NCBI RefSeq assembly: GCF_001886715.1
Contig: NZ_CP018082.1
Location: 4,712,001-4,776,000 of the forward strand
Length of the DNA: 64,000 nucleotides
Direction of reading: 5' to 3'
DNA from: Nocardia mangyaensis
Lineage (GTDB): Bacteria; Actinomycetota; Actinomycetes; Mycobacteriales; Mycobacteriaceae
Of the stretch, positions 2,678-62,286 are shown in pieces; positions within the stretch are counted from its first letter, which is position 1, and every line of letters starts with the position of its first letter. The notes beneath the pieces are model-generated. The model saw nothing but the letters and a program-made list of their open reading frames with translations, did no database searches and was not told the origin of the DNA. The position numbers were made by a program, and so were the translations under genes.

Positions 2678-3598
2678 ATGGTGGTCGTGCCCTTCCGCCA
2701 TACCGCCCCGTCGAGCGCCGGGCGACCTTCCGGCATGCGTTCCGACCGGCACGAATCCCGCCCGACGACGCTCGCGGCGCCGTACCCGGTCAGCGTCGCC
2801 CCCGCCGGACCGACACCGCCTGCCGACGCCACGGCAAGCACGTATCCCGCACACGCACAACAGCTTCCAGCTCCACTGACTCAACCCCGCCCGCCCCGCC
2901 ACTCCCTCGAGGCCACCGCCGTCCGCGCGGCCCGGACCGCCACCGCGCCTGCCGGCGTCATCCGTGTCAGCGCCGCGCTCGTCGCTTCCGCGGATGCCGC
3001 GACAGACGCCGTCGCGACACACACCGATGGCACAGCGGCGCACACCGCCACGACGCCCGCCGAGGCACGGACCTGGCGCAGGCGGACATTGCTGCGGCTG
3101 GTCGGCGCGGGCGCGCTCGGGGCGCCCGCGGTAGCCGTGCTGGCCGCCTGTGCCGAGGACGACACCGTCCACGCACCCGATCCGCTTGCCGCCCAAGAGG
3201 TTCTGGCCCGCGCCGATGCCGTCGCGGCGACCGCGGCCATCGCGCTGGCGCCGCAGTCGCAGGCCGCGTTGAGCACCATCGCGACCGAGCGCACCGCGCA
3301 TGCCGATGCGTTGCGTGCCGAGATCGACCGGGTGCTCGGCGTGTACGGCGACGGCACCACACCGGTGCGACGCACGGGCGAGGTCGTCGTGCCCGGGCCC
3401 GACGGATCGACGGTGCCCGCCTCGGTCGTCGAGACCCATGCCGCGCAGCCGCTCGACCTCGCGCAGCTGCGCGATCAGCTGGCGCGCTCCCAGCAGGCCG
3501 CCGCCCGCGCGGCCAGTACCGAATCCGGTTATCGCGCAGGCTTGCTGGCCTCGATCAGCGCGTCCTGCGCCACCCAGGCGGGAGTCCTGCTGACATGA
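2678..3598 (+). CDS. Alanine-rich membrane/lipoprotein-like protein (Rv2843-like position)
   Basis: 306-residue Ala-rich protein of unknown function in the position of M. tuberculosis Rv2843, next to rimP. Residues about 131-157 form an Arg-rich start (WRRRTLLR) followed by a hydrophobic segment ending VLAAC, which looks like a signal or anchor with a lipobox (Cys158). The C-terminal half is helical and polar, with a THAAQPLDLAQLRDQL stretch. The first 130 residues are Ala/Thr/Pro-rich and disordered-looking, which is odd ahead of a signal sequence. In this frame I see no good start after the ATGs at 2678 and 2735. It overlaps the next gene by ATGA, so they are probably co-translated. Confidence 0.7.
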   Translation: MVVVPFRHTAPSSAGRPSGMRSDRHESRPTTLAAPYPVSVAPAGPTPPADATASTYPAHAQQLPAPLTQPRPPRHSLEATAVRAARTATAPAGVIRVSAALVASADAATDAVATHTDGTAAHTATTPAEARTWRRRTLLRLVGAGALGAPAVAVLAACAEDDTVHAPDPLAAQEVLARADAVAATAAIALAPQSQAALSTIATERTAHADALRAEIDRVLGVYGDGTTPVRRTGEVVVPGPDGSTVPASVVETHAAQPLDLAQLRDQLARSQQAAARAASTESGYRAGLLASISASCATQAGVLLT

Positions 3599-4026
3599 CC
3601 GACCAACGACAGGCACTGCAGGCCGCGCTCGACAGCGAGCACGCCGCCGTCTATTCCTACGGCGTGATCGCCGCCTACGCCAACAACGACCGGGCCCGCC
3701 TGGTCGCCGAGTTCAGCGCGGCCCACCGGGCCCGCCGCGACGCCACCATCGAACTTCTCGAAGCCGACGGCACCGCCCCGGAAGCACCCGACGCCGCCTA
3801 CAACCCGCCGTTCCCGGTCGACAACCCGATCCCCGCGGCCCAGCTGGCTGTCGCGGTCGAATCCGACTGCGCCGCAGCGTGGTTGGCCGCGGTCGAACGA
3901 GCCACCGAGCCCGCCGTGCGCGTGACGGCCACCCAGGCGCTCACCGAGGCGGCCGTACGCCGCGCCCGCTGGCAGGTCATCCTGGGCGCCGATCCGGTCA
4001 CCGTCAGCTTCCCAGGCAAGGCATAG
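3595..4026 (+). CDS. DUF4439 ferritin-like protein (Rv2844-like)
   Basis: 143-residue helical protein resembling the DUF4439 ferritin-like family, in the position of M. tuberculosis Rv2844. The start MTDQRQALQAALDSEHAAVYSY has the Glu/His-containing first helix seen in this family, and a second acidic helix follows (AELFSAAH-like region, then ELLEADGT). No signal peptide is visible. The ATG overlaps the stop of the upstream gene. The function is unknown; the fold suggests a four-helix bundle that may or may not bind metal. Confidence 0.85.
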   Translation: MTDQRQALQAALDSEHAAVYSYGVIAAYANNDRARLVAEFSAAHRARRDATIELLEADGTAPEAPDAAYNPPFPVDNPIPAAQLAVAVESDCAAAWLAAVERATEPAVRVTATQALTEAAVRRARWQVILGADPVTVSFPGKA

Positions 4027-50597: not shown

Positions 50598-52373
50598 TCA
50601 ATCGGCTGGCGACACGGCGACCTCGCCGGACAGCAGCGCCAGTCGATCCGCGCCGGTCGGCTCGGTACTCGCCATCGCAACGATCGCGTATCGGCTGCTG
50701 TATCGCGATGCCACAGCCTCGATATGGGCCACTTCGGTCGCCGCACGGGCGCGCAGCAACGCGTTGGTGGGGTGCGCTGCGGCGAGGGAGTTGTTGAGGA
50801 CCCAGGCCCACGGGGTGATGGCGGCACGTTCCAGGTCCGCGCAGAGTTCGACGGATTCGACGATCGGCGTCGACTCCGGTGCGGTGACGATGAGGATCTT
50901 GGTGTGCGCGGGGTCCTGAAGCCGCATGAGCGGGGTGGTGAAACCGCCGTCGGCGCCGAGGTTGCGGCTGATCTCGCGGTGGTAGGCACCGGTGGCGTCG
51001 AGCAGCAGCAGGGTGTGCCCGGTCGGGGCGGTGTCGACGACGACGAAACGGCGTCGGGATTCGTGGACCAGGCGTGAAAACGCTTGGAACACCGCGACTT
51101 CCTCGGTGCAGGGCGAGCGGAGGTCTTCCGCGAGGGCGGCCCGCCCCTGCGCGTCGAGGTCGGCGCCGCGGGAGCGCAGGATCCGCTGCCGGTACTGCTC
51201 GGTCGCCTCGACGGGGTCGATGCGCGAGAGCCGCATGGTGGCGGGGCCTTCGCCGAGGGTGTCGGCCAGGTGCGCGGCGGGATCGGTGGTGCTCAGATGT
51301 ACCTCGTGGCCGCGGGTGGCCAAGGCGGTCGCGATCGCGGCGGCGATGGTGGTTTTGCCGACGCCGCCTTTGCCCATGCACATGATCAGACCGTGGCCGT
51401 CGAGAGCCAGCTCATCGATCAGAGCCGACAAGGGGGCTGGTTCGATGTGCGCGTCACCCGCGTCGGATACCTCGGAAAGTGTTGTGCTGGAGTCGAATAG
51501 CGCGCTCAGGGCCGTCACCCCGACCATCTCGACAGACTTGAGCGGGATCCGGTCGCACGGCAACTCGGCCAGCGACCTGGGCATCGACGCGATCGCAGCA
51601 TTCTCGCGGCGGGTGATCGCCACCGCGAGCGCGTCTGTATCCGACTGTGACAGCACGGCATTGATGATCAGGTGCCCGGCTGTGACACCGATGTCGGCGA
51701 GCTCGTCGTAGGTTCTGGCCACCTCGCGCAGCGCCGCGTCCTGAGCGCGAGCCACCAGGACCAGGCGGGTGAGCTTGGGGTCGGTCAAGGTGCGCACCGC
51801 CGCCGCATAGGTTTCCCGTTGCGCGTCCAGTCCGGACAGCGGCCCCAGACAGGAGGCGTCGCCGCTGCCCTGCAAATACTCGGTCCACGCTCCCGGCAGT
51901 TGCAGCAACCGGATCGTGTGGCCGGTGGGCGCGGTGTCGAAGACGATGTGGTCGAACTCCGCCAGGTGGGTGGCCGCCGGGTCGAGCAGCGCGGTGAACT
52001 CGTTGAACGAGGCGATCTCGGTGGTGCACGAGCCGGACAGCTGCTCGGTGATCGTGTCGATCTCGGCGGCGGGCAGCAGCCCGCGTACCGGTCCGATGAT
52101 CCGTTCGCGGTAGGCGGCGGCCACCTGGTGCGGGTCGATCTCGAGTGCCGACAGGCCGGTCACCGCGGGAATCGCGGTGACCGACGCGCCGATGGTCGTG
52201 TCGAAGACATGGCCGATGTTGGAGGCCGGATCGGTGCTGACCAGCAGCACCCTGGCACCGCCACGCGCGAGCGCGATCGCCGATGCGCAGGCGACCGAGG
52301 TCTTGCCGACTCCACCCTTTCCGGTGAAGAACACACAGCGCGGGGCATCGGTCAGGAAGGCGGGAGTGTCCAC
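50598..52373 (-). CDS. arsA: Arsenical pump-driving ATPase ArsA
   Basis: 591-residue pseudodimeric ATPase. The first P-loop is GKGGVGKTS (residues about 18-26) and the second GKGGVGKTT (about 330). Each half has the signature DTAPTGHT (about 135 and about 450). It energises arsenite efflux, usually with ArsB or Acr3. The C-x-x-x metal-site cysteines lie in the linker and halves (for example GSCTTE and SPCTEE). I chose the GTG at 52373, 5 bases after the arsD stop. It is last in arsR-acr3-arsC-arsC-arsC-arsD-arsA. Confidence 0.93.
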   Translation of the reverse strand: MDTPAFLTDAPRCVFFTGKGGVGKTSVACASAIALARGGARVLLVSTDPASNIGHVFDTTIGASVTAIPAVTGLSALEIDPHQVAAAYRERIIGPVRGLLPAAEIDTITEQLSGSCTTEIASFNEFTALLDPAATHLAEFDHIVFDTAPTGHTIRLLQLPGAWTEYLQGSGDASCLGPLSGLDAQRETYAAAVRTLTDPKLTRLVLVARAQDAALREVARTYDELADIGVTAGHLIINAVLSQSDTDALAVAITRRENAAIASMPRSLAELPCDRIPLKSVEMVGVTALSALFDSSTTLSEVSDAGDAHIEPAPLSALIDELALDGHGLIMCMGKGGVGKTTIAAAIATALATRGHEVHLSTTDPAAHLADTLGEGPATMRLSRIDPVEATEQYRQRILRSRGADLDAQGRAALAEDLRSPCTEEVAVFQAFSRLVHESRRRFVVVDTAPTGHTLLLLDATGAYHREISRNLGADGGFTTPLMRLQDPAHTKILIVTAPESTPIVESVELCADLERAAITPWAWVLNNSLAAAHPTNALLRARAATEVAHIEAVASRYSSRYAIVAMASTEPTGADRLALLSGEVAVSPAD

Positions 52374-52378
52374 GGTGA

Positions 52379-52765
52379 TCAGCAGCAGCCGGGTCCGCTG
52401 CAGCTGTCTTTGCCGGTGTCGAGCAACGTCATGCTCTTCGCCGCCGGGCTCACCGCAGGGGTGCGCGACCACAGGGTGATCTCGTCGCGGGTCGGATAGC
52501 GACCGGTCAGTGTGGTGACCCCGTCGACCAGGATCAGCGGAAGCCCTTGTGAGCCTGCGACTTCGAGAAAGCTACGGACGGTGTCGTTGCCCGCGAAAGC
52601 GAGGGGTTCCGAGGCCATGTTGAACCGGGTGATGTCACCGCCCTGGCCGCGCAGCCAGTCCAGATCGGCGGAGAAACTCACCAGGGCTTGGTCGACGTCG
52701 GGTCCGCACACACCGGTGTTGCAGCACAGCGCGGGCTCGTAGACTTCGATCTTGCTCATCAACAT
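52379..52765 (-). CDS. arsD: Arsenite chaperone ArsD
   Basis: 128-residue ArsD, which carries As(III) to ArsA. The conserved metal-binding triad is in ALCCNTGVCG (Cys pair about 14-15 and Cys20), and a second Cys pair ends the protein (GPGCC). The middle follows the family (DITRFNMASEPLAF, LPLILVDG). The start at 52765 may be internal, with an ATG two codons later as alternative. It is directly upstream of arsA. Confidence 0.93.
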   Translation of the reverse strand: MLMSKIEVYEPALCCNTGVCGPDVDQALVSFSADLDWLRGQGGDITRFNMASEPLAFAGNDTVRSFLEVAGSQGLPLILVDGVTTLTGRYPTRDEITLWSRTPAVSPAAKSMTLLDTGKDSCSGPGCC

Positions 52766-52792: not shown

Positions 52793-53203
52793 TCAGGTGC
52801 GGGCGGGGAGTAGTTCGGCGATCAGTTCCTCGATGCGCTTTCTGATCTCGTCGCGGATCGGGCGCACCGATTCCACGCCTTTGCCCGCCGGGTCTTCGAG
52901 CTTCCAGTCGCGGTAGTCCACGCCGGGGAAGTACGGGCAGGCGTCGCCGCATCCCATGGTGATCACCACCGAGGAGGTCTCCACGGCGTCGGTGGTGAGG
53001 ATCTTGGGTGACTGGGCGGTGATGTCGATGCCGAGTTCGGCCATCGCCTCGACCGCGGCCGGATTCAGGGCATTGCCGGGTGCGCTGCCCGCGGAGCGGA
53101 CCTCGATGTCCTCGCCCGCGAGGTGGGTCAGGAAGCCTTGGGCCATCTGGGAGCGTCCGGCGTTGTGGACACAGACGAAGAGCACGCTGGGCTTGGTCGT
53201 CAT
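52793..53203 (-). CDS. arsC: Arsenate reductase, LMW-PTP fold, paralogue 3
   Basis: 136-residue arsenate reductase of the low-molecular-weight phosphatase fold. The P-loop CVHNAGRSQMA (Cys about 11) has the CX5R form, and MGCGDACPYFPG provides the thiol pair region (about 83-94) used in thioredoxin- or mycothiol-coupled recycling. It reduces As(V) to As(III) for export by Acr3. It has GGGAGG before the ATG. Which reductant it uses is inference. Confidence 0.9.
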   Translation of the reverse strand: MTTKPSVLFVCVHNAGRSQMAQGFLTHLAGEDIEVRSAGSAPGNALNPAAVEAMAELGIDITAQSPKILTTDAVETSSVVITMGCGDACPYFPGVDYRDWKLEDPAGKGVESVRPIRDEIRKRIEELIAELLPART

Positions 53204-53229
53204 GGGAGGCAAGGCCTTTCGGTGGTGGG

Positions 53230-53901
53230 TCAGCTGGTGGGGATGTCGAGTTCGGCGAGCAGGTGCCGGACCCGGGTTTCGATGTCGTCGCGGATCGGGC
53301 GCACAGCGGCAACATCGTGGCCGGCGGGGTCGTCGAGTTGCCATTCCTCGTAGCGGTGGCCCGGGTACAGCGGGCAGGCGTCACCGCAGCCCATGGTGAT
53401 GATGACGTCGGCGGCTTGGAGGATCTCTTCGGTCCATGGCTTGGGGAATTCCCCGGTGATGTCGATGCCGACCTCGGCCATCGCGGCGACCGCGGCGGGG
53501 TTGATCTCGTCGCCGGGTTCGGAACCACCCGACCAGGCCACCGCGTTGTCACCGGCCAGGTGAGTGAAGTAGCCGAGCGCCATCTGCGAGCGCCCGGCGT
53601 TGTGGGTGCACAGGAACAGCACGGTCGGTTTGCCGGTGTTGGCTTTGCCTTCGACGCGGGCCAAGGCGACCAGGCGCTGGCGGGCGAACCGTTCGGCCAG
53701 CAGCGGCAGGTAGTTCACCACGGTGGCGCGACCGGCGAACTGGTCATAAGAGGAATACAGGAACCGTTCGATCGTCTCGACGCCGAACGCCGTCTCGAAC
53801 TCGCGTTGTAGCCGGGTCGCGGCAGTCTTGAGAGCGTGCTTCTGATCGAGGGTGAGGGTGCTGCGCACAGCGTGTGCGTGGTCTACCGGGCTGTCGGTCA
53901 T
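53230..53901 (-). CDS. arsC: Arsenate reductase with N-terminal three-helix domain, paralogue 2
   Basis: 223 residues. The first about 90 form an N-terminal helical bundle (LYSSYDQFAGRATVVNYLPLLAERFARQRL is its best-conserved part), typical of actinobacterial two-domain ArsC proteins. The C-terminal LMW-PTP fold carries CTHNAGRSQMA (about 98-108) and MGCGDACPLYPG. The helical domain probably mediates dimerisation. Its ATG overlaps the upstream arsC stop (ATGA). It shares the terminal DWxxLDDPAG-like region with paralogue 3. Confidence 0.9.
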   Translation of the reverse strand: MTDSPVDHAHAVRSTLTLDQKHALKTAATRLQREFETAFGVETIERFLYSSYDQFAGRATVVNYLPLLAERFARQRLVALARVEGKANTGKPTVLFLCTHNAGRSQMALGYFTHLAGDNAVAWSGGSEPGDEINPAAVAAMAEVGIDITGEFPKPWTEEILQAADVIITMGCGDACPLYPGHRYEEWQLDDPAGHDVAAVRPIRDDIETRVRHLLAELDIPTS

Positions 53902-54344
53902 TGACGATGTCCCTTTGTCGGGTCCGATGGTTCTGAGGTGGTGAGTTCGGTCAGCAGGTGTCGCACGTGATCGTGGATGTCGTCGCGTACCAGGCGCATG
54001 CGTTCGATGCCGTCGATTCCGCGTTCGGAGGGTTCGTCGGTGTCCCAGTTGATGATTCGGACACCGGGGACGGGTTCGACCCGAGCTTCGCGCCCCAGGG
54101 TGACCACCACGTCGATGGTGGGGAGCAGGTCGGGATCGATGGGTTTGGGCTTTTCGTCAGCGAGGTCGATGCCCAGTTCGTCGAGCGAGGCCACCGACAG
54201 CTCGTTCAACGCGGTGCCGGGGCGGGTACCCGCGGAGTGCACCTGGACTCGGTCACCGGCGAGATGGCGCATCAGTCCGGCGGCCATCTGCGACTTTCCG
54301 CCGTTCTTCACGCAGACGAACAGCACCGAGGGCTTGTCGCTCAC
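53898..54344 (-). CDS. arsC: Arsenate reductase/LMW phosphatase-like, paralogue 1
   Basis: 148-residue LMW-PTP-fold protein at the start of the arsC trio, similar to actinobacterial mycothiol-linked arsenate reductases. Its P-loop reads CVKNGGKSQMA, so the usual Arg of CX5R is Lys, and the second Cys motif (MGCGDAC) of the other two is absent (VVTLGREARVE instead). It may use mycothiol rather than an internal thiol relay. GTG start overlaps the acr3 stop (GTGA). Confidence 0.85.
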   Translation of the reverse strand: MSDKPSVLFVCVKNGGKSQMAAGLMRHLAGDRVQVHSAGTRPGTALNELSVASLDELGIDLADEKPKPIDPDLLPTIDVVVTLGREARVEPVPGVRIINWDTDEPSERGIDGIERMRLVRDDIHDHVRHLLTELTTSEPSDPTKGHRQ

Positions 54345-55456
54345 CGGGCGTCCTCCGCGGTCGTGACAGCCGGGCTCGGTGCCGAAACGACGGCACTGTG
54401 GAAACGTTTGCGCAGCGCGAGTGATACGTACACCAAGCCGACCAGCACCGGAACCTCGATCAGCGGACCGACGACACCCGCCAAGGCTTCACCGGAGGTC
54501 GCACCGTAGGTGGCGATCGCGACAGCGATCGCGAGCTCGAAGTTGTTGCCCGCTGCCGTGAACGCCAGCGTCGTGGTCCGCGCGTAGCCCAGGCCCATGA
54601 CAGCGCCGAGGGCGTAGCCACCGCCCCACATGACGGCGAAGTACACCAGCAGCGGTAGGGCGATCCGGGCGACGTCGAGGGGGTGGGAGGTGATCTGGTC
54701 ACCTTGCAGGGCGAACAGGACCACGATCGTGAACAACAGCCCATACAGCGCCCACGGGCCGATGATGGGAAGGAATTTCTCCTCGTACCACTGGCGACCT
54801 TTGGCGCGTTCGCCGAAGCGGCGGGTGAGGTAACCGGCCAGCAGCGGGATGCCCAAGAAGATCAGGACCGATTTCGCGATCTGCCAGGGAGAGACATCGA
54901 TCGTGGTCTGTTCCAGGCCCAGCCAGCCGGGCAGTACCGAGAGGTAGAACCAGCCGAGCACGGCGAACATGAACACCTGGAATACCGAGTTCAGCGCGAC
55001 CAGCACTGCGGCGGCGTCGCGGTCACCGCAGGCCAGGTCGTTCCAGATGATGACCATCGCGATGCAGCGCGCCAGACCGACGATGATCAGACCGGTGCGG
55101 TACTCGGGCAGGTCGGGCAGGAAGATCCAGGCCAGCGCGAACATCAGCGCCGGGCCGAGCACCCAGTTCAGGACCAGCGAACCGATCAGGAGCTTGCGGT
55201 CGCCGGTGACGGAGTCGAGGCGGTCGTAGCGGACCTTGGCCAGCACCGGGTACATCATGATCAACAGACCGAGCGCGATCGGCAGGGAGATGCCGTCGAG
55301 CTCGATCGTGCCGAGGGCGTCACCGAGGCCGGGGATCATGCGCCCCAACAGGATTCCGGCCAGCATCGCCACGCCGATCCATACCGGGAGGAAGCGGTCG
55401 AGGGTCGACAGTTTGCCGACGACGGGCGGGTGCTCGGTCGTGGTGGTCGCGCTCAT
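54341..55456 (-). CDS. acr3: Arsenite efflux permease Acr3
   Basis: 371-residue Acr3-family As(III)/H+ antiporter with about ten membrane segments. Family landmarks include the conserved Cys in GLARCIAMVIIWNDLACGD (about 140-158), NSVFQVF, and AGNNFELAIAVAIATYGATSGEALAGVVGPLIEVP-like C-terminal segments (about 298-332). It exports As(III) produced by the downstream reductases, helped by ArsA/ArsD. It overlaps arsR (ATGA) and the first arsC (GTGA). Confidence 0.95.
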   Translation of the reverse strand: MSATTTTEHPPVVGKLSTLDRFLPVWIGVAMLAGILLGRMIPGLGDALGTIELDGISLPIALGLLIMMYPVLAKVRYDRLDSVTGDRKLLIGSLVLNWVLGPALMFALAWIFLPDLPEYRTGLIIVGLARCIAMVIIWNDLACGDRDAAAVLVALNSVFQVFMFAVLGWFYLSVLPGWLGLEQTTIDVSPWQIAKSVLIFLGIPLLAGYLTRRFGERAKGRQWYEEKFLPIIGPWALYGLLFTIVVLFALQGDQITSHPLDVARIALPLLVYFAVMWGGGYALGAVMGLGYARTTTLAFTAAGNNFELAIAVAIATYGATSGEALAGVVGPLIEVPVLVGLVYVSLALRKRFHSAVVSAPSPAVTTAEDAR

Positions 55457-55815
55457 GCGTGCACGCTCTCGGTGATCAGCGCACTGGACACGCGGGCGAA
55501 TGCTTCGGGCACGACGCGGTAGTACACCCACGATGCGCGGCGCTCGCTGGTGAGCAGGCCTGCTTCGCGCAGCACTTTGAGGTGGTGCGAGATGGTCGGC
55601 TGGCTGACCTCGACACCGTCGGAGATGTCGCACACGCACGCTTCCCCACCGGCTCGGCTCGCGACCAGCGAGAACAGTCGCAGGCGCACCGGATCCGCCA
55701 GCGCCTTGAACACGGCGGCGAGTTCCACGGCTTCCGTGGGGGTCAGCGGGTCACGGACGACCGGGTCGGCGGCGCAGGCCGCGACCGGTGTCAGGTTCAG
55801 CTCCGACTTCGACAT
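55453..55815 (-). CDS. arsR: ArsR-type As(III)-responsive repressor
   Basis: 120-residue ArsR/SmtB regulator. The metal-binding site is in EACVCDI (two Cys, about 57-59) near the DNA-binding helix, and further cysteines occur near the N-terminus (VAACAAD). The recognition region is VSQPTISHHLKVLREAGLL. It heads the ars operon and probably binds the operator-like repeat at 55824-55839 immediately upstream. AGGA precedes the ATG. Confidence 0.92.
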   Translation of the reverse strand: MSKSELNLTPVAACAADPVVRDPLTPTEAVELAAVFKALADPVRLRLFSLVASRAGGEACVCDISDGVEVSQPTISHHLKVLREAGLLTSERRASWVYYRVVPEAFARVSSALITESVHA

Positions 55816-55823
55816 TCCTCGAT

Positions 55824-55839
55824 ATTGACGTATGTCGAA
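55824..55839. promoter_or_regulatory. Ars operator candidate O1, upstream of arsR
   Basis: ATTGACGTATGTCGAA fits ATYGA-N5-GTCGAW, shared with two sites at 56839-56854 and 56872-56887. A looser ATTGA ... TCAAT repeat overlaps at 55824-55844. Placement just upstream of arsR fits autoregulation. Confidence 0.55.
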
Positions 55840-55933
55840 TCAATGCGCAAGCAAACGTACGGTGAACGGCCGGGAACCACGATCGTGCGGCGTCACGATA
55901 TACGGCCACGCCCCCACCGCCGCCCCGGCAGCG

Positions 55934-56800
55934 TCAGGAATTCGCGCCGCGTCGTTCGAGCAAGACGGTGTCACGCCAGACGCCGTCCAGCCGCGCGATG
56001 CGCTCGCGGACTCCCACGGTCCGAAACCCCGCCGAGTGGTGCAGGGCGATGCTGGGGCGATTCTCCGGGAAGATCGCGCACTGCAGCGTCCACAGGCCCG
56101 CCTCATCGGCGGCCACGACCTGGGTTCGCAGCAGCGACTTCCCCACGCCTCGCCCACGCATGCCGTCACCGACATAGACAGAGTTCTCGACGACACCGGC
56201 GTAGCAGTCACGGCCGGAAACCGAACTCAGCGTCGCCCAGCCGACCACAACGCCGCCGATCTCGGCGACCCAGCGATGATCAGGCAACCATTGCGCGCCC
56301 AGGGTCGCCCGACCGGGAACCTCGGTATCGAAGGTCGCCGAGCCGGTGGCGATGCCCTCGCCGTAGATCCGCAGGACCGCGTCCCAGTCGTCGTCGCGCA
56401 TCGCCCGCACAGTGACATCGACGGGGAGGTCGGTCGGACAGCAGGGCCGGGGCGCGAGCACGCCCATGACCGCGTCGGCAGCATGCGGAAGGCCGGTACA
56501 GCAGGACGGGTTGATCGCGACGACCGTGGAGGTCCCGCGCTTGTGGGTGGTCACGAACCCGACTTCGGCGAGCTTGCGGACGTGGTGCGACACCGTCGGC
56601 TGCGCGATCTCGAGCGCGGAGGTCAGTTCGCGCACCGTGATCCCGCCCGGACGGGTGGCCACCAGGTGCAGCAGCTGGATGCGAGTCGGGTCGGCCAGGC
56701 AGGCGAACCATTCGGCGTAGGTCGTGGCGTCACCGACGGCCAGGGCGTCGACGCGCGCAGCGGTCGCGTCGCGAACCACGGGCATATCCAGGGACGTCAT
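55934..56800 (-). CDS. ArsR-ArsN-like fusion: winged-helix regulator with GNAT acetyltransferase
   Basis: 288-residue two-domain protein. Residues about 20-115 are an ArsR/SmtB winged helix (AEWFACLADPTRIQLLHLV, AQPTVSHHVRKLAEVGFV) with candidate As(III) cysteines in SCCTG and RPCCPT at the domain junction. Residues about 125-285 are a GNAT like ArsN/phosphinothricin acetyltransferase (VYVGDGMRGRGVGKSLL acetyl-CoA loop, NRPSIALHHSAGFR). ArsN acetylates arsinothricin or phosphinothricin. I chose the ATG at 56800: the -10 TACAAT lies 7 bases upstream, so the mRNA is likely leaderless. It is divergent from the flavoprotein gene. Confidence 0.85.
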   Translation of the reverse strand: MTSLDMPVVRDATAARVDALAVGDATTYAEWFACLADPTRIQLLHLVATRPGGITVRELTSALEIAQPTVSHHVRKLAEVGFVTTHKRGTSTVVAINPSCCTGLPHAADAVMGVLAPRPCCPTDLPVDVTVRAMRDDDWDAVLRIYGEGIATGSATFDTEVPGRATLGAQWLPDHRWVAEIGGVVVGWATLSSVSGRDCYAGVVENSVYVGDGMRGRGVGKSLLRTQVVAADEAGLWTLQCAIFPENRPSIALHHSAGFRTVGVRERIARLDGVWRDTVLLERRGANS

Positions 56801-56807
56801 GAGCGCC

Positions 56808-56813
56808 ATTGTA
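56808..56813 (-). promoter_or_regulatory. -10 element for the ArsR-ArsN fusion
   Basis: On the minus strand this reads TACAAT, a close -10 match, 7 bases before the ATG at 56800, with no room for a ribosome binding site. A partial operator, ATCGACGACAATCAAT, overlaps at 56813-56828. Confidence 0.5.
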
Positions 56814-56838
56814 TCGACGACAATCAATGGTTGCATTC

Positions 56839-56854
56839 ATCGACGACTGTCGAT
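56839..56854. promoter_or_regulatory. Ars operator candidate O2
   Basis: ATCGACGACTGTCGAT is a 16-base site with perfect 6-base arms (ATCGAC/GTCGAT) and fits ATYGA-N5-GTCGAW. Its end abuts a TAGATT -10-like element (56854-56859) for the flavoprotein operon. Confidence 0.58.
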
Positions 56855-56871
56855 AGATTCATCTCCATTAG

Positions 56872-56887
56872 ATCGATGCACGTCGAT
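56872..56887. promoter_or_regulatory. Ars operator candidate O3
   Basis: ATCGATGCACGTCGAT fits the same ATYGA-N5-GTCGAW pattern as O1 and O2. It lies in the leader of the flavoprotein operon, 15 bases before its ATG. Confidence 0.55.
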
Positions 56888-56902: not shown

Positions 56903-58234
56903 ATGACCGAATTGCCCGTCGTTGTCGTAGGAGCCGGTCCCGTGGGACTGGCCGCCGCCGCTGAACTGCGCGAGCGCGGCGTGGATGTCCTGGTGTTCGA
57001 ACGTGGCCCCCGGGCGGGCGCCGCGGTCGCGGAGTGGAATCACGTGCGGTTGTTCTCACGGTGGGCCGAACTGATCGCCCCCGCCGCGCGCCGCGTGCTC
57101 GACAGAACCGGGTGGACCGCCCCCGCGGATGACGGCTACCCGACCGGACAGGACTGGGTGCGCGACTACCTGACCCCGCTGGCCGCCGCGCTGGGCGATT
57201 CCGTGCGCTACGACACCGAGGTCGTCGGACTCGCCCGCCGAGGGCGTGACCGCCTGGTCGACGCCGGACGCGACAGCGAACCGCTGTCGGTGCACGTGCA
57301 ACGTACCGACGGTAGCGAGGATCGGATCCTGGCGCGCGCGGTGATCGATGCCTCAGGCACCTGGGGCGGGCCGAATCCGTTGGGTGGAGAAGGACTCCCC
57401 GCACTCGGTGAACGCGGCTGTGCCGCAGTGACCTATCGGGTACCCGATGTCGACTCCGCTGAGCAGGCAGCGCGATTCGGCGCAGCGCACACGGTGATCG
57501 CGGGTGGCGGCCACTCCGCCCTCGGCGCGATCGTGGCCCTGGCCCAGTTGGCCCAGCGGCAGCCGGGCGCCCGACTGACCTGGGTCCTGCGGCGAGGATC
57601 CGCCGATTCGACCTTCGGTGGCGGCGACGCCGATGAACTGCCCGCGCGCGGCGCGCTCGGACTGCGCGCCAAGCAGGTCGTCGACGACGGGCTCCTGGAG
57701 GTGGTGACGGGATTCCGCACCGCCGCAATCGAATCGGGCGCCAGCGGGCGCGTCACCCTCGTGGCCGACGACGGGCGACGCATCGACGATGTCGACAACG
57801 TGGTGGCTCTCACCGGATTCCGGCCCGAGCTCGGATGGTTGTCGGAGGTGCGGCTGGAACTGGACCCGGTCCTGCAGGCCCCGGTCCGCTTGGCCCCGCT
57901 GATCGACCCGAATGTGCACTCGTGTGGCACTGTCTACCCGCACGGTGTCGCCGAGTTGACCCACCCCGAACCCGGCGTCTACCTCGTCGGCATGAAGAGC
58001 TATGGCCGCGCGCCGACGTTCCTGGCGATGACCGGCTACGAACAGGTTCGTTCCATCGCCGCCGAACTCGTCGGCGACCACGAGTCCGCCGCTCGCGTCG
58101 AACTCACCTTGCCCGAGACCGGAGTATGTGGTGGCGCGGGCGTTTTCGATGATCCGGACAGCGAGAGCTCAGGTGGTTGTTGCGGTCCAGCACCCGAAGT
58201 GCTGACCTTGACGGCGCCCGCGGTCGGCCGCTGA
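56903..58234 (+). CDS. FAD-dependent monooxygenase-like flavoprotein with Cys-rich tail (ars island)
   Basis: 443-residue flavoprotein of the FMO/thioredoxin-reductase-like group. The first dinucleotide site is VVVVGAGPVGLAAAAEL (about 6-22) and a second is HTVIAGGGHSALGA (about 197-210). The ATG motif near the end (DNVVALTGFRPELGWL) is typical of FMO-like enzymes. The last about 40 residues contain the Cys cluster VCGGAGVFDDPDSES then GGCCGPA, resembling As(III)-binding sites. It is first in an operon with an MFS permease and ArsO, divergent from ArsR-ArsN. A role in organoarsenical oxidation is inference. Confidence 0.8.
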   Translation: MTELPVVVVGAGPVGLAAAAELRERGVDVLVFERGPRAGAAVAEWNHVRLFSRWAELIAPAARRVLDRTGWTAPADDGYPTGQDWVRDYLTPLAAALGDSVRYDTEVVGLARRGRDRLVDAGRDSEPLSVHVQRTDGSEDRILARAVIDASGTWGGPNPLGGEGLPALGERGCAAVTYRVPDVDSAEQAARFGAAHTVIAGGGHSALGAIVALAQLAQRQPGARLTWVLRRGSADSTFGGGDADELPARGALGLRAKQVVDDGLLEVVTGFRTAAIESGASGRVTLVADDGRRIDDVDNVVALTGFRPELGWLSEVRLELDPVLQAPVRLAPLIDPNVHSCGTVYPHGVAELTHPEPGVYLVGMKSYGRAPTFLAMTGYEQVRSIAAELVGDHESAARVELTLPETGVCGGAGVFDDPDSESSGGCCGPAPEVLTLTAPAVGR

Positions 58235-58237
58235 GAA

Positions 58238-59461
58238 GTGTCGACCGCCACCCTCGTGGCGCAGGCCGGGTCCACCGAGCCCGGCCTGCGCCGGCGGGTA
58301 CTGATCACGCTGTGCCTGACCGAGATCACCAGCTGGGGAATTCTGTACTACGCCTTTCCCGTTCTCTCGGTGTCGATCTCGGCCGACACCGGATGGTCGC
58401 TGCCGATGATCACCGCCGCGTTCTCGCTCAGCCAACTGGCCGCCGCGCTCACCGGTATCCCGATCGGTCGTGTCATCGACCGCGTCGGTCCACGGTCAGT
58501 CATGACAGCGGGCTCGGTGCTGGCGGTGCCCGCGCTGGTGGCGGTCGCGCTCGCGCCCAACCCGGCAGTGTTCTTCGCAGGTTGGGTGGCCGCGGGTGTG
58601 GCGATGGGCGCGGTGCTGTATCCACCGGCGTTCGCGGCACTCACCCGCTGGTTCGGTACCGACCACGTCAAGGCGCTGATGATCCTCACCCTCTCGGGCG
58701 GATTCGCCAGCACCGTGTTCGCCCCACTCACCGCCGCGCTGGTCCAGCACACCGACTGGCGCGCCACCTATCTCACGCTCACCGTGGTGCTGGCGGTCGT
58801 GACGATCCCGGCGCACCTGTTCGGATTGTCCGGCCCGTGGCCGAATCCGCCGATCGCCGCGTCCCCCGCCGACGACGATCACAGCGCGGTGTCGCGCAGT
58901 CGCGCGTTCTTGATGCTCGTGCTCGCCTCGAGCCTGGGCGCGTTCGCTGCCTTCGCCGCGATCTTCAATCTGGTACCACTGCTGATCGAACGCGGTTTCT
59001 CCCCCTCGCTGGCCGCACTCACTCTCGGGTTGGGCGGCGCCGGACAGGTCCTCGGCCGGATCGGCTACCTCCCGCTGATGACCCGAACCACCGCCCGCGG
59101 CCGCATTGTCGGAACCTTCGCCTTGACCGCTGTCGCGACAGCGCTGACAGGCTGGGCGACGGCGGTCTTCGCGCTCATCGCGATCTCGATCGGCGCCGGA
59201 GTCGTCCGAGGCATCATGACCCTCGTCAAGGCGACCGCTGTCACCGACCGCTGGGGCGCCACCCACTACGGCCGCCTCAACGGACTCCTGTCGGCCCCCG
59301 TGGTCATCGTGATGGCGCTGGCGCCATGGGCCGGAACCGTGCTGATGACCTGGACCGGCAGCTACGCCCGCGCCTACTTCGTCCTCGCCGCCATCGCGGC
59401 ACTGGCGGCGCTTGCGGCCACCGCGAGCATGCCCCGTTCATCGAAACTCCGCGTCCCGTAG
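58238..59461 (+). CDS. MFS permease of the ars island
   Basis: 407-residue MFS transporter with about 12 membrane segments. It has the N-terminal start TSWGILYYAFPVLSVSI, a motif A-like loop GRVIDRVGPRS (about 76-86), and the conserved RGIMTLVKATAVTDRWG segment (about 323-339). The family resembles the ars-linked permeases that export organic arsenicals, but the substrate is not shown. GTG start, 3 bases after the flavoprotein stop, so they are co-translated. Confidence 0.82.
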   Translation: MSTATLVAQAGSTEPGLRRRVLITLCLTEITSWGILYYAFPVLSVSISADTGWSLPMITAAFSLSQLAAALTGIPIGRVIDRVGPRSVMTAGSVLAVPALVAVALAPNPAVFFAGWVAAGVAMGAVLYPPAFAALTRWFGTDHVKALMILTLSGGFASTVFAPLTAALVQHTDWRATYLTLTVVLAVVTIPAHLFGLSGPWPNPPIAASPADDDHSAVSRSRAFLMLVLASSLGAFAAFAAIFNLVPLLIERGFSPSLAALTLGLGGAGQVLGRIGYLPLMTRTTARGRIVGTFALTAVATALTGWATAVFALIAISIGAGVVRGIMTLVKATAVTDRWGATHYGRLNGLLSAPVVIVMALAPWAGTVLMTWTGSYARAYFVLAAIAALAALAATASMPRSSKLRVP

Positions 59462-59472
59462 AGGAGATCCTC

Positions 59473-60522
59473 GTGCATTCGAGTCATGACGCCGTCATCG
59501 TCGGCGCAGGTCAATCCGGCCTGGCAGCCGCACACCACCTGCGCAGGCGCGGCCTGAGCGCCGTTGTCGTGGAATCCGGGTCCGAGCCGGTGGGCTCCTG
59601 GCCCCACTACTACGACAGCCTGACGCTGTTCTCACCCGCGCGATACAGCGCCCTGCCCGGTCTTCGGTTCCCCGGAGATCCCGACCACTACCCGCATCGT
59701 GACGAAGTGGTCGACTACCTTCGCCGGTACGCCGCGACCCTCGACACCGACATCCAGACATCGCAACGCGTCACCGACGTCGACTACGACGGGCAACTGT
59801 TCACCGCCCACACCGCGACCGGAAAGGTCTACACCGCGCCACGGTTGGTCGCCGCGACCGGCGGATTCGGCACGCCGAACATTCCGTCGCTACCCGGCCA
59901 GACCGACTTCACCGGAGACATAGTGCACGCCAGCAGGTATCGCTCACCCTCCGCGTTCGCCGGTCAGCGGGTGATCGTGGTCGGCGCAGGAAACTCCGCG
60001 GTCCAGATCGCGACCGAACTCGCCGAAACCGCATCGGTCACAGTGGCCAGTCGCACCCCGGTCACATTCGTACCCCAACGCCCATTCGGCCGCGACGTTC
60101 ATTTCTGGTTCACCATCAGCGGCCTGGACGCACTGCCGATCGGCCACCTGATCCGCGAACCGCCCACGGTGCCGACCGTCGACACCGGCCGGTACCGGGC
60201 CGCGCTCACCGCGCAACGGCCGGTGGCGCGGGCGATGTTCACCCGGCTCGAGGCCGACGCGGCGGTATGGCCGGACGCGACCCGCAGCACGGTCGACACG
60301 ATCATTCTCGCCACCGGGTACCGTCCCGACCTGACCTACCTCCACAGCCTCGGCGCCCTCGACGACACCGGCAGACCCCTGCACCGCAAGGGGGTCTCGA
60401 CCACGCACCCTGGCCTGGGATACCTCGGCCTGGAATGGCAACGCACCCTGTCCTCGGCATCCCTGCGCGGCGTGGGCCGCGATGCCCGTCGACTCATCGC
60501 ACACCTGGATCCGGTGGTGTGA
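59473..60522 (+). CDS. arsO: ArsO-like NAD(P)H-dependent flavin monooxygenase
   Basis: 349-residue FMO-type flavoprotein resembling ArsO, an arsenic-operon monooxygenase. The FAD site is AVIVGAGQSGLAAAHHL (about 9-25), followed by GSWPHYYDSLTLFSPARYSALPG (about 42-64), a NADP site VIVVGAGNSAVQIA (about 172-185) and the ATG motif IILATGYRPDLTYL. GTG start with GAGGAG upstream, 11 bases after the MFS stop. It ends the ars island. The physiological substrate is not known from sequence. Confidence 0.85.
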   Translation: MHSSHDAVIVGAGQSGLAAAHHLRRRGLSAVVVESGSEPVGSWPHYYDSLTLFSPARYSALPGLRFPGDPDHYPHRDEVVDYLRRYAATLDTDIQTSQRVTDVDYDGQLFTAHTATGKVYTAPRLVAATGGFGTPNIPSLPGQTDFTGDIVHASRYRSPSAFAGQRVIVVGAGNSAVQIATELAETASVTVASRTPVTFVPQRPFGRDVHFWFTISGLDALPIGHLIREPPTVPTVDTGRYRAALTAQRPVARAMFTRLEADAAVWPDATRSTVDTIILATGYRPDLTYLHSLGALDDTGRPLHRKGVSTTHPGLGYLGLEWQRTLSSASLRGVGRDARRLIAHLDPVV

Positions 60523-60587: not shown

Positions 60588-61384
60588 TCAGCGCAGCGCG
60601 GCACGTCCGTTGAGCCGCCCCAGTAGCACCAGCACGATCAGGGTCACCGCGACCAGCACCGTGGTCCCCGCGGCGGCGTCGAAGGCCTCCCCTCGGTCGG
60701 TCTGGGCGAAAATGCCGACCGGCAGGGTCTTCCAGGTGGCGGGATAGACCATGATCGTCGCGCCGAGTTCGCCCATGGACAGGGCGACGGCCAGACCGGC
60801 GGCGGCGCCCATCGCGGGCAGGAGCAGGGGCAGGGTGATCTGGCAGAGCACGCGGACGGGGCCGGCGCCGAGGGATTCGGCGGCTTGCCGGTAGGCGGGG
60901 TCGAGGCGGTCGAGGGCGGCGGAGACCGCGCTGAAGGCGTAGGCCAGGACCAGCACGGCGTGGGCGAGGATGACGATCCATTTCGTGCCGCCGAGCAGGA
61001 TCGGGCGCTCGTTGAACGCGATGAGCACGCCGAGGCCGATGGCCACCGAGGGCACGGCGACCGGGAGGTGAACACCGCGTCGGTGATTCGACGCAGCCAG
61101 CCGGGTGCTTCCCGGGCGGCCAAGGCCGCCCAGGTGCCGAGGATCAGCGAGAGCGCCCCGGCCAGCAGGGCGGTCTGCAGGCTCACCGACAGGCTGGCGG
61201 CCTGCTCGCCGCTGAGCGCGTGGCCGAGATTGGCGAAGCCGAGGTCCGAGGGCAGGGGGCCGGTCCAGCTGCCCGCCAGCGCGGCGGCGACCACGGTGGC
61301 GAGGGGGGCGAGGAAGACCACCGTGACCACGAGCGCGAAAACGCCGAGGACCAGTGCCTTTCCCCGCGGTGTCCAGACGAGCAC
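60588..61384 (-). pseudogene. ABC transporter permease (PhnV-like), interrupted by a -1 frameshift
   Basis: About 265 residues if continuous. The N-terminal part (from GTG 61384: WTPRGKALVLGVFALVVTVVFLAP) and C-terminal part (from about 61070: VAIGLGVLIAFN, EAA-like AESLGAGPVRVLCQITLPLLLPA) are in different frames. At about 61065-61068 the plus strand reads GGGAGG where GGGAGGG would restore TLPVAVPSVAIGLG. A missing G in a G run suggests sequencing error, though real decay is possible. It is the second permease of a PhnSTUV-like importer and its gene starts within 3 bases of the first permease's stop. Confidence 0.85.
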
Positions 61385-61386
61385 AG

Positions 61387-62286
61387 TCAATCCCCCTTCG
61401 GGCGGGTGCGGGTGAACCGGCCGAAGACGAACCGGTAGGTGAGGTAGAGGGTGAGCGAGAGCAGCACCTGCACCGAGGCGAGCACGGCGGCGCCGGGCAG
61501 GTCGAAGGTGACGATGCCGCGGGTGTAGATGAGCGCGGGCAGGGTGATCACGCCCTTGGCACCGGTGAACAGCACGATGCCGAACTCGTTGAGCGTCAGC
61601 AGCAGGACGAGACTGCCACCGGCGGCGAGCGCGGGCCAGGCCTCGGGCAGCACCACCTGCCGCAACACCCGCCACGGTGAGGCGCCGAGACTCGCTGCCA
61701 CATCGAGTTGTTCGCGGGGCATCTGCGCGAACGCGGCCAGGACGGGCCGCACCACGAACGGAGTGAAGAAGGTGATCTCGGCCAGGATCACCCCCAGTGG
61801 GGTGGTGAGAAAGTCGATGACCGGTGTGGTGGCGCCGGTCAATTCGGCGATCAGCGCGTTCACCGCGCCCGCCGTGCCGTAGAGGAAGGTGAAGGCGAGG
61901 GTGATCAGGAACGACGGCAAGGTCAGAATCGTGTCGATGAGCCGCCCGACCAGACCCGAGCCGGGGAACGGGACGAACGCGAGCACGATGGCCAGGAACG
62001 TGCCGAGTACCACACAGCCCATCGTCGAGCAGACAGCGATGGACACCGTGCGCCACAGCGCCTCCCGGAAGGCGGTCGAGCCGAGCACCGAGGTCCACAC
62101 CTCGGTGCCGCGCCCGGTCGGGGTCTGGGTCGACTCGGTGAGCACCCGCACGATCGGGTAACCCGCGATGCCGAGCACCACGAGTACCGGCGGCAGGGTC
62201 CACAGAATCGGCAGCCATTGCCGTCGTGGTGCGGGGGCTTTCACCGGCGGCACCCCGTCGGTGCGGTCGATGACAATCGCACTCAT
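61387..62286 (-). CDS. ABC transporter permease (PhnU/thiamine-iron type)
   Basis: 299-residue permease with six predicted membrane segments. It carries the binding-protein-dependent loop AASLGASPWRVLRQVVLPEAWPA (about 204-226). The layout of substrate-binding protein, ATPase and two CysU/PhnU-type permeases matches PhnSTUV 2-aminoethylphosphonate or Fe3+/thiamine importers. The exact substrate is inference. Confidence 0.82.
   Translation of the reverse strand: MSAIVIDRTDGVPPVKAPAPRRQWLPILWTLPPVLVVLGIAGYPIVRVLTESTQTPTGRGTEVWTSVLGSTAFREALWRTVSIAVCSTMGCVVLGTFLAIVLAFVPFPGSGLVGRLIDTILTLPSFLITLAFTFLYGTAGAVNALIAELTGATTPVIDFLTTPLGVILAEITFFTPFVVRPVLAAFAQMPREQLDVAASLGASPWRVLRQVVLPEAWPALAAGGSLVLLLTLNEFGIVLFTGAKGVITLPALIYTRGIVTFDLPGAAVLASVQVLLSLTLYLTYRFVFGRFTRTRPKGD

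Follow-up and report, generated by a model that had tools for sequence, protein, structure and literature searches.

A single gene of the soil bacterium Nocardia mangyaensis (positions 55934–56800, minus strand, of a 64,000-nucleotide stretch of contig NZ_CP018082.1, hereafter the window) encodes an ArsR/SmtB winged helix and a GNAT acetyltransferase in one chain, and its product is probably an autoregulated, arsenical-responsive repressor of the ArsR type with a built-in acetyltransferase resembling ArsN1 family A (ArsN1a). The observations behind this reading are the fusion itself, the identity of its domains, the conservation of its cysteines and catalytic motif, the repeats at its promoter and the divergent partner genes. 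In the mechanism that we propose, a winged-helix dimer free of arsenical would occupy three ATCGA-N6-TCGAT repeats and close two back-to-back promoters, the (leaderless) one of the fusion and that of a divergent operon encoding a flavoprotein, an MFS transporter and an ArsO-like protein. A trivalent arsenical would be held by two cysteine pairs (C112/C113 and C132/C133) that bracket the last ArsR helix, perhaps joined across the dimer, and its binding would release the repressor from the DNA. The freed protein would also N-acetylate a toxin that carries an amine, an arsinothricin-like amino acid arsenical being the most plausible candidate, and the flavoprotein and MFS transporter would oxidize or export the arsenical.

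The fusion lies in a frame of 300 codons (55934–56836, minus strand) that is free of internal stops and already open from Met1 at 56836. The probable start is Met13 at 56800, the gene boundary given in an earlier sequence-only reading of this DNA. Residues 1–12 fall in gaps in about 86–116 of 121 aligned sequences, and alignment column 13 is a methionine in 116 of them. A TACAAT box at 56808–56813 places the predicted transcription start near the ATG of Met13, making a leaderless protein of 288 amino acids the likely product. The sequence-only reading had proposed that one frame joins a full ArsR/SmtB winged helix to a GNAT, which the open frame and the profile matches confirm. The domain search that it suggested scored both halves above their Pfam cut-offs (PF01022, 44.5 bits against 22; PF00583, 45.5 bits against 20.7), and the ArsR half also exceeded the curated cut-off of NF033788 (65.5 bits against 55). 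Helix-turn-helix and GNAT Pfam domains were both present in all 120 relatives among the matches listed, in a table read by eye. Because the frame is uninterrupted both here and in relatives belonging to many genera, the possibility that it represents two proteins or a frameshift error is rejected; a fusion created by chance or by assembly was also ruled out.

The ArsR/SmtB winged helix (residues 34–123; 56468–56737, minus strand) was assigned from Pfam and NCBIfam profiles, sequence matches in the PDB and the helices and wing predicted by AlphaFold2. The confidence of the model (pLDDT, by block) was 81–98 for residues 31–120 and 68 for residues 121–130; a structural second look with VIA-align covered the GNAT half.

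The DNA upstream of the fusion supports a regulatory role for this domain. The window contains three copies of the inverted repeat ATYGA-N6-TCRAT, all within the 102-base intergenic region, and 100 shuffles yielded a mean of 0.20 copies and never three. Repeat 1 (ATCGATGCACGTCGAT, 56872–56887) is downstream of the flavoprotein -10 box. Repeat 2 (ATCGACGACTGTCGAT, 56839–56854) lies in the spacer of the predicted flavoprotein promoter (TTGCAT-17-TAGATT, 56831–56859, plus strand) and repeat 3 (ATCGACGACAATCAAT, 56813–56828) in that of the predicted fusion promoter (TGCAAC-16-TACAAT, 56808–56835, minus strand), each in one-base contact with the -10 box of that promoter. Across 72 regions (71 loci and the window), which are mutually related rather than independent, at least one repeat was present in 63 and three in 43, for a total of 163 copies. 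Base shuffles gave a mean of 0.03 copies, and the rest of those loci held 17 copies in 864,372 bases. Half-sites spaced by 5 or 7 bases occurred in none of the regions, and spacings of 0, 2, 8, 10, 11 and 12 in 1 to 17 regions. Genome-wide (7,310,115 bases in one contig), the strict repeat is found at nine places and two copies come together only here. Furthermore, a common box (GTTGC/GCAAC on opposite strands) is present in 59 of the 72 regions. A TAnnnT element follows GTTGC by exactly 19 bases on the flavoprotein side in 58 of these 59, and GCAAC by 16 bases on the fusion side in 32, some regions being truncated. This spacing positions repeats 2 and 3 between the predicted -35 and -10 elements of two back-to-back promoters. 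Three conserved inverted repeats at the gene's own promoter are, by sequence, what an operator for an ArsR/SmtB repressor would look like, and a repressor role for the fusion is supported on this basis.

Upstream of the start of a separate small arsR gene next to the fusion, we also noted an imperfect repeat (ATTGACGTATGTCGAAT, 55824–55840) that resembles a degenerate fusion repeat. Cross-regulation between the two genes is possible.

The presence of this complete small ArsR next door, together with the retention of the GNAT in lineages that lost the winged helix, could mean that the fusion is a plain detoxification enzyme whose ArsR part merely tethers or dimerizes the GNAT, with regulation left to the small ArsR. 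We consider this improbable. The L004 and L012 loci carry three repeats each, yet no relative of the small ArsR turned up by tblastn in their fetched 6-kb flanks (other kinds of ArsR are possible there), and the recognition helix is well conserved, with each of residues 79–90 identical in at least 96 of 121 sequences.

If the fusion is a repressor, its cysteines are the candidate arsenical sensor. The two Cys-Cys pairs that the sequence-only reading had placed at the domain junction correspond to residues 111–115 (SCCTG) and 130–135 (RPCCPT). Pair 1 (C112 and C113; 56498–56503, minus strand) opens the last ArsR helix and is intact in 120 of the 124 fusions counted in alignment A1 (132 rows, from which five ArsR and three GNAT proteins were excluded). 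Pair 2 (C132 and C133; 56438–56443, minus strand) is in the linker and intact in 114, as are both pairs together; C46 is retained in 113. The exact spacing CC-x18-CC is kept in 181 of 193 collected proteins of 265–320 amino acids. Of four stretches compared, the helix that begins with pair 1 (residues 109–123) has the highest mean conservation, 0.90; the winged helix reaches 0.79, and the linker and the GNAT 0.81 each.

Cysteine thiolates bind trivalent arsenicals in several winged-helix ArsR repressors, and the sites with trivalent arsenic (As(III)) described in one source provide a reference (PMC11868830). They are Cys32-34-37 in R773 ArsR, Cys95-96-102 around the end of the C-terminal helix in AfArsR (type 2), Cys15-16-55 in CgArsR (type 3, with Cys15-Cys16 N-terminal) and Cys41-80-82 in ArArsR, in which Cys80 and Cys82 are in the wing sheet (PMC11868830). 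C46 is the sole cysteine before C112 in the window protein, which excludes all of these types except that of AfArsR. Residues 47–111 have no cysteine, ruling out an R773-type site; a CgArsR-type site is ruled out by C46 alone preceding C112, and an ArArsR-type site by the lack of cysteines in the predicted wing (residues 95–108). The comparison with AfArsR is ambiguous: ungapped extension sets C132 beside Cys102, whereas a gapped alignment (one of four equal ones) disagrees with that count and sets C112/C113 on Cys95/96. On these comparisons, neither pair can be assigned with confidence to one of the four published sites. By ungapped counting, C112 is at SmtB position 106, one of the alpha-5 zinc ligands that SmtB shares across its dimer. 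An arsenic site to which one chain supplies C112/C113 and its partner C132/C133 is therefore plausible.

RpArsR1 and RpArsR2 of Rhodopseudomonas palustris, as described in their report, have Cys91-92, Cys99 and Cys109-110 (PMC13236881). Judged by spacing, their two pairs, 18 residues apart, resemble those of the fusion, which are 20 apart; unlike the fusion, RpArsR1 and RpArsR2 are standalone and have the extra Cys99 (PMC13236881). The pair-helix-pair layout may therefore not be unique to the fusion. These reported pairs also lowered our estimate of a more specific version of the arsenical reading, which we hold tentatively and consider rather unlikely. In this version, the fusion would be a single protein that both senses and modifies an organoarsenical antibiotic: the cysteine pairs at both ends of the dimerization helix would sense a trivalent organoarsenical and derepress the flavoprotein–MFS operon, and the same chain would acetylate the compound, coupling DNA release to catalysis. 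If true, actinomycetes would have a widespread defence against arsenic-containing antibiotics. The coupling of arsenical binding to acetylation is speculation.

The GNAT half (residues 142–295; 55952–56413, minus strand), delimited by profiles, AlphaFold2 and conservation, has the GNAT fold with an acetyl-CoA motif (R227-G-R-G-x-G) and a candidate base, E217. These residues are conserved among the 124 fusions: E217 in 121, R227 in 123, and G230 and G232 in 124. The sequence-only reading had made the fusion claim depend on acetyl-CoA binding by this domain, and the CoA motif is indeed conserved. Some transcription factors have effector domains that derive from enzymes, and a dead or moonlighting GNAT could likewise act as the acetyl-CoA-sensing effector domain of the repressor. 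This is highly improbable, because 120 to 124 of the 124 fusions retain the CoA motif and the candidate Glu base, and GNAT-only derivatives persist.

The best curated match of the GNAT half is ArsN1a, at 134.2 bits, and the next acetyltransferase family scores 57. ArsN1 family B scores 57.2 bits (cut-off 210) and phosphinothricin acetyltransferase (PAT) 47.1 bits (NCBIfam cut-off 300); PHROGs returned two generic acetyltransferase matches only. The ArsN1a cut-off was passed in none of 197 genomes, compared with one of 14 control genomes. On the curated cut-offs, we therefore reject the assignment of the enzyme half to ArsN1 or PAT. ArsN1 of Pseudomonas putida (PpArsN1), an arsinothricin N-acetyltransferase, shares the GNAT fold (PMC6465285). 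When residues are matched by spacing, its Arg77 falls on R209 of the fusion, Tyr80 on Y212, the acidic residue at 85 on E217 and Tyr89 on Y221. This mapping runs from the conserved tyrosines by motif spacing and rests on published residue numbers rather than on a residue-level alignment; by it, R209 is kept in 115 of 124 fusions. PpArsN1 is standalone and has Arg75 (PMC6465285), unlike the fusion, which has Ser207 there and scores below the NCBIfam ArsN1 cut-offs. The Arg75–Arg77 substrate gate is thus incomplete on the spacing map, with only Arg77 matched. Standalone relatives at L095 and L111, both below the ArsN1a cut-off, also have a serine at this position, which seems to make it a trait of the GNAT branch rather than of the fusion. 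The likeness to arsinothricin and phosphinothricin acetyltransferases claimed earlier holds in part: ArsN1a is the closest family, but the ArsN1a, ArsN1b and PAT cut-offs are all missed and a serine replaces Arg75.

Profile-identified neighbours confirm that the fusion is within an ars gene cluster, ordered along the window as arsA, arsD, three arsC, acr3, the small arsR and the fusion, with the flavoprotein, an ArsK-like MFS transporter and an ArsO-like monooxygenase divergent. A contig scan identified 275 stretches encoding the fusion, and the best 80 of these 275 were used for locus counts. The divergent flavoprotein adjoins the fusion in 71 of the 80 loci, followed by the MFS transporter in 52 (adjacency rule). 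Core ars matches (ACR3, ArsC, ArsD, ArsA or small ArsR above 60 bits) were found in 48 of the 80 within fetched flanks of up to 6 kb, some contigs ending sooner; ACR3 was present in 26 and ArsC in 43.

Several observations weigh against the reading that we favour. The GNAT half is under the NCBIfam equivalog cut-off of ArsN1a (134.2 against 170 bits), as is the best of the 127 matching members of alignment A1 (E 3.5e-44, about 150 bits by scaling), and the Arg75 position is serine in 123 of the 124 fusions and alanine in one, by the spacing map. A matching repeat is missing from 9 of the 72 regions, several of which are truncated on the side of the fusion or contain close variants in the printed sequences; pair 2 is not intact in 10 of the 124 fusions; and the second ArsR beside the fusion could bind the same DNA. 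Nine of the 80 loci have no adjacent divergent flavoprotein, no core ars match was found in the fetched flanks of 32, and no ars match lies within about 6.5 kb of the standalone sister GNATs at L124–L127 and L130. The scores below the ArsN1 and PAT cut-offs, the serine, these 32 loci and these standalone relatives also favour a real though lesser possibility: a working arsenical-responsive repressor whose GNAT half has a non-arsenic substrate, such as a protein lysine (perhaps one in the repressor itself), a phosphinate or a different amino acid. It is opposed by the best curated match, ArsN1a at 134 bits compared with 57 for the next family, and by other standalone sister GNATs located in ars clusters, some near acr3/arsC genes (L128, L129 and L132) and others adjoining arsC and near an arsR (L134 and L135).

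The standalone GNATs of L124–L127 are 190-codon frames, 53–56% identical to the fusion's GNAT half, and are possibly a non-arsenic branch.

To the question of how common such fusions are, raised in the sequence-only reading, the relatives search and genome sample answer that they are common in actinomycetes. Fusion matches at E ≤1e-60 occurred in 49 of 394 genomes of the class (own genome included) and in 17 of 137 genera, so a unique fusion is rejected. The best named contig matches are from Nocardia, including Nocardia ignorata (L002), in which the fusion matches at 88–89%. An NCBI protein name already records the architecture ('helix-turn-helix domain-containing GNAT family N-acetyltransferase'). 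We found no study of an ArsR-GNAT fusion in the open-access literature, though one may be in print elsewhere.

Natural variants separate the parts of the fusion. The actinomycete locus L133 (2039–3542) has three consecutive separate genes for an ArsR 48% identical to the fusion's ArsR half, an ArsM-like protein and a related GNAT; by eye from its translation, the middle gene looks like an ArsM methyltransferase. At L122, L123 and L131 the GNAT is kept without a preceding winged helix, the linker pair is absent or reduced to one cysteine, and no flavoprotein A match was found nearby. The loss of the linker pair where the winged helix is absent, in two or three lineages only, ties the pair to sensing rather than catalysis. 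The GNAT-only proteins P0193, P0194, P0197 and P0223 look like the L122 group, P0197 matching L122 at 93%. In L131, from the same genus, the GNAT-only version (3021–3617) sits between a small arsR and an ArsO-like gene.

ArsR-enzyme fusions have already been published with ArsM and ArsC, and the GNAT partner is a further variant. Among proteins that have been tested, ArsRM of Brevundimonas sp. M20 comes closest; it is reported to bind to the promoter of its own gene and to methylate As(III) (PMC10190100). Like the fusion, ArsRM has an N-terminal ArsR and a C-terminal enzyme, an arsenic-transforming one, in one chain; as described, it differs in being an S-adenosylmethionine (SAM) methyltransferase, in its operator (CTTTATATAAAG) and in its link to a met operon (PMC10190100). 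The ArsR-ArsC and ArsC-ACR3 fusions of Actinobacteria also combine ars components in one polypeptide in the same bacterial group, but with an arsenate reductase or a pump rather than a GNAT, and the word acetyltransferase was not found in the main text of that paper (PMC6514093). If both activities are real, the fusion would be a further and widespread kind after the methyltransferase and reductase fusions. It offers a ready candidate operator and a partner operon that varies little, and a handle on the real substrate of the ArsN1a branch and on whether organoarsenical antibiotics are abundant enough in soil to select dedicated sensors.

The divergent flavoprotein (56903–58234, plus strand), an FAD-dependent oxidoreductase of 443 amino acids, has no good match among the NCBIfam families (ArsO is highest, at 48 bits against a cut-off of 425). 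Among 71 sequences (window and 70 loci), its C341 and C409 are invariant, and C426 and C427 are conserved in 68 and 67. This conservation suggests a substrate that binds thiols, for example a trivalent arsenical, and the protein is possibly an unrecognized arsenical-processing enzyme. Three bases past its stop begins the MFS transporter resembling ArsK (58238–59461, plus strand; 158.7 bits, cut-off 400), followed by the ArsO-like flavin monooxygenase (59473–60522, plus strand, start inferred; 250.9 bits, cut-off 425, scored on 59503–60522). On the minus strand, open reading frame (ORF) list and profiles identified the small ArsR of 120 amino acids (55453–55815) upstream of acr3, which encodes an ACR3 arsenite efflux pump (54341–55456, start inferred; 452.3 bits, cut-off 282.8). 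Then come three arsenate-reductase-like genes (arsC, 52793–54344), the first two above Pfam but below NCBIfam arsC cut-offs and the third identified by ORF reading and tblastn to relatives, and arsD and arsA (50598–52765), identified by profile searches, also on the minus strand. Beyond the ArsO-like gene, positions 60588–62286 contain two ATP-binding cassette (ABC) permease-like frames. The piece at 60588–61055 appears to continue a permease begun upstream in another frame, and the gene may be interrupted by a frameshift.
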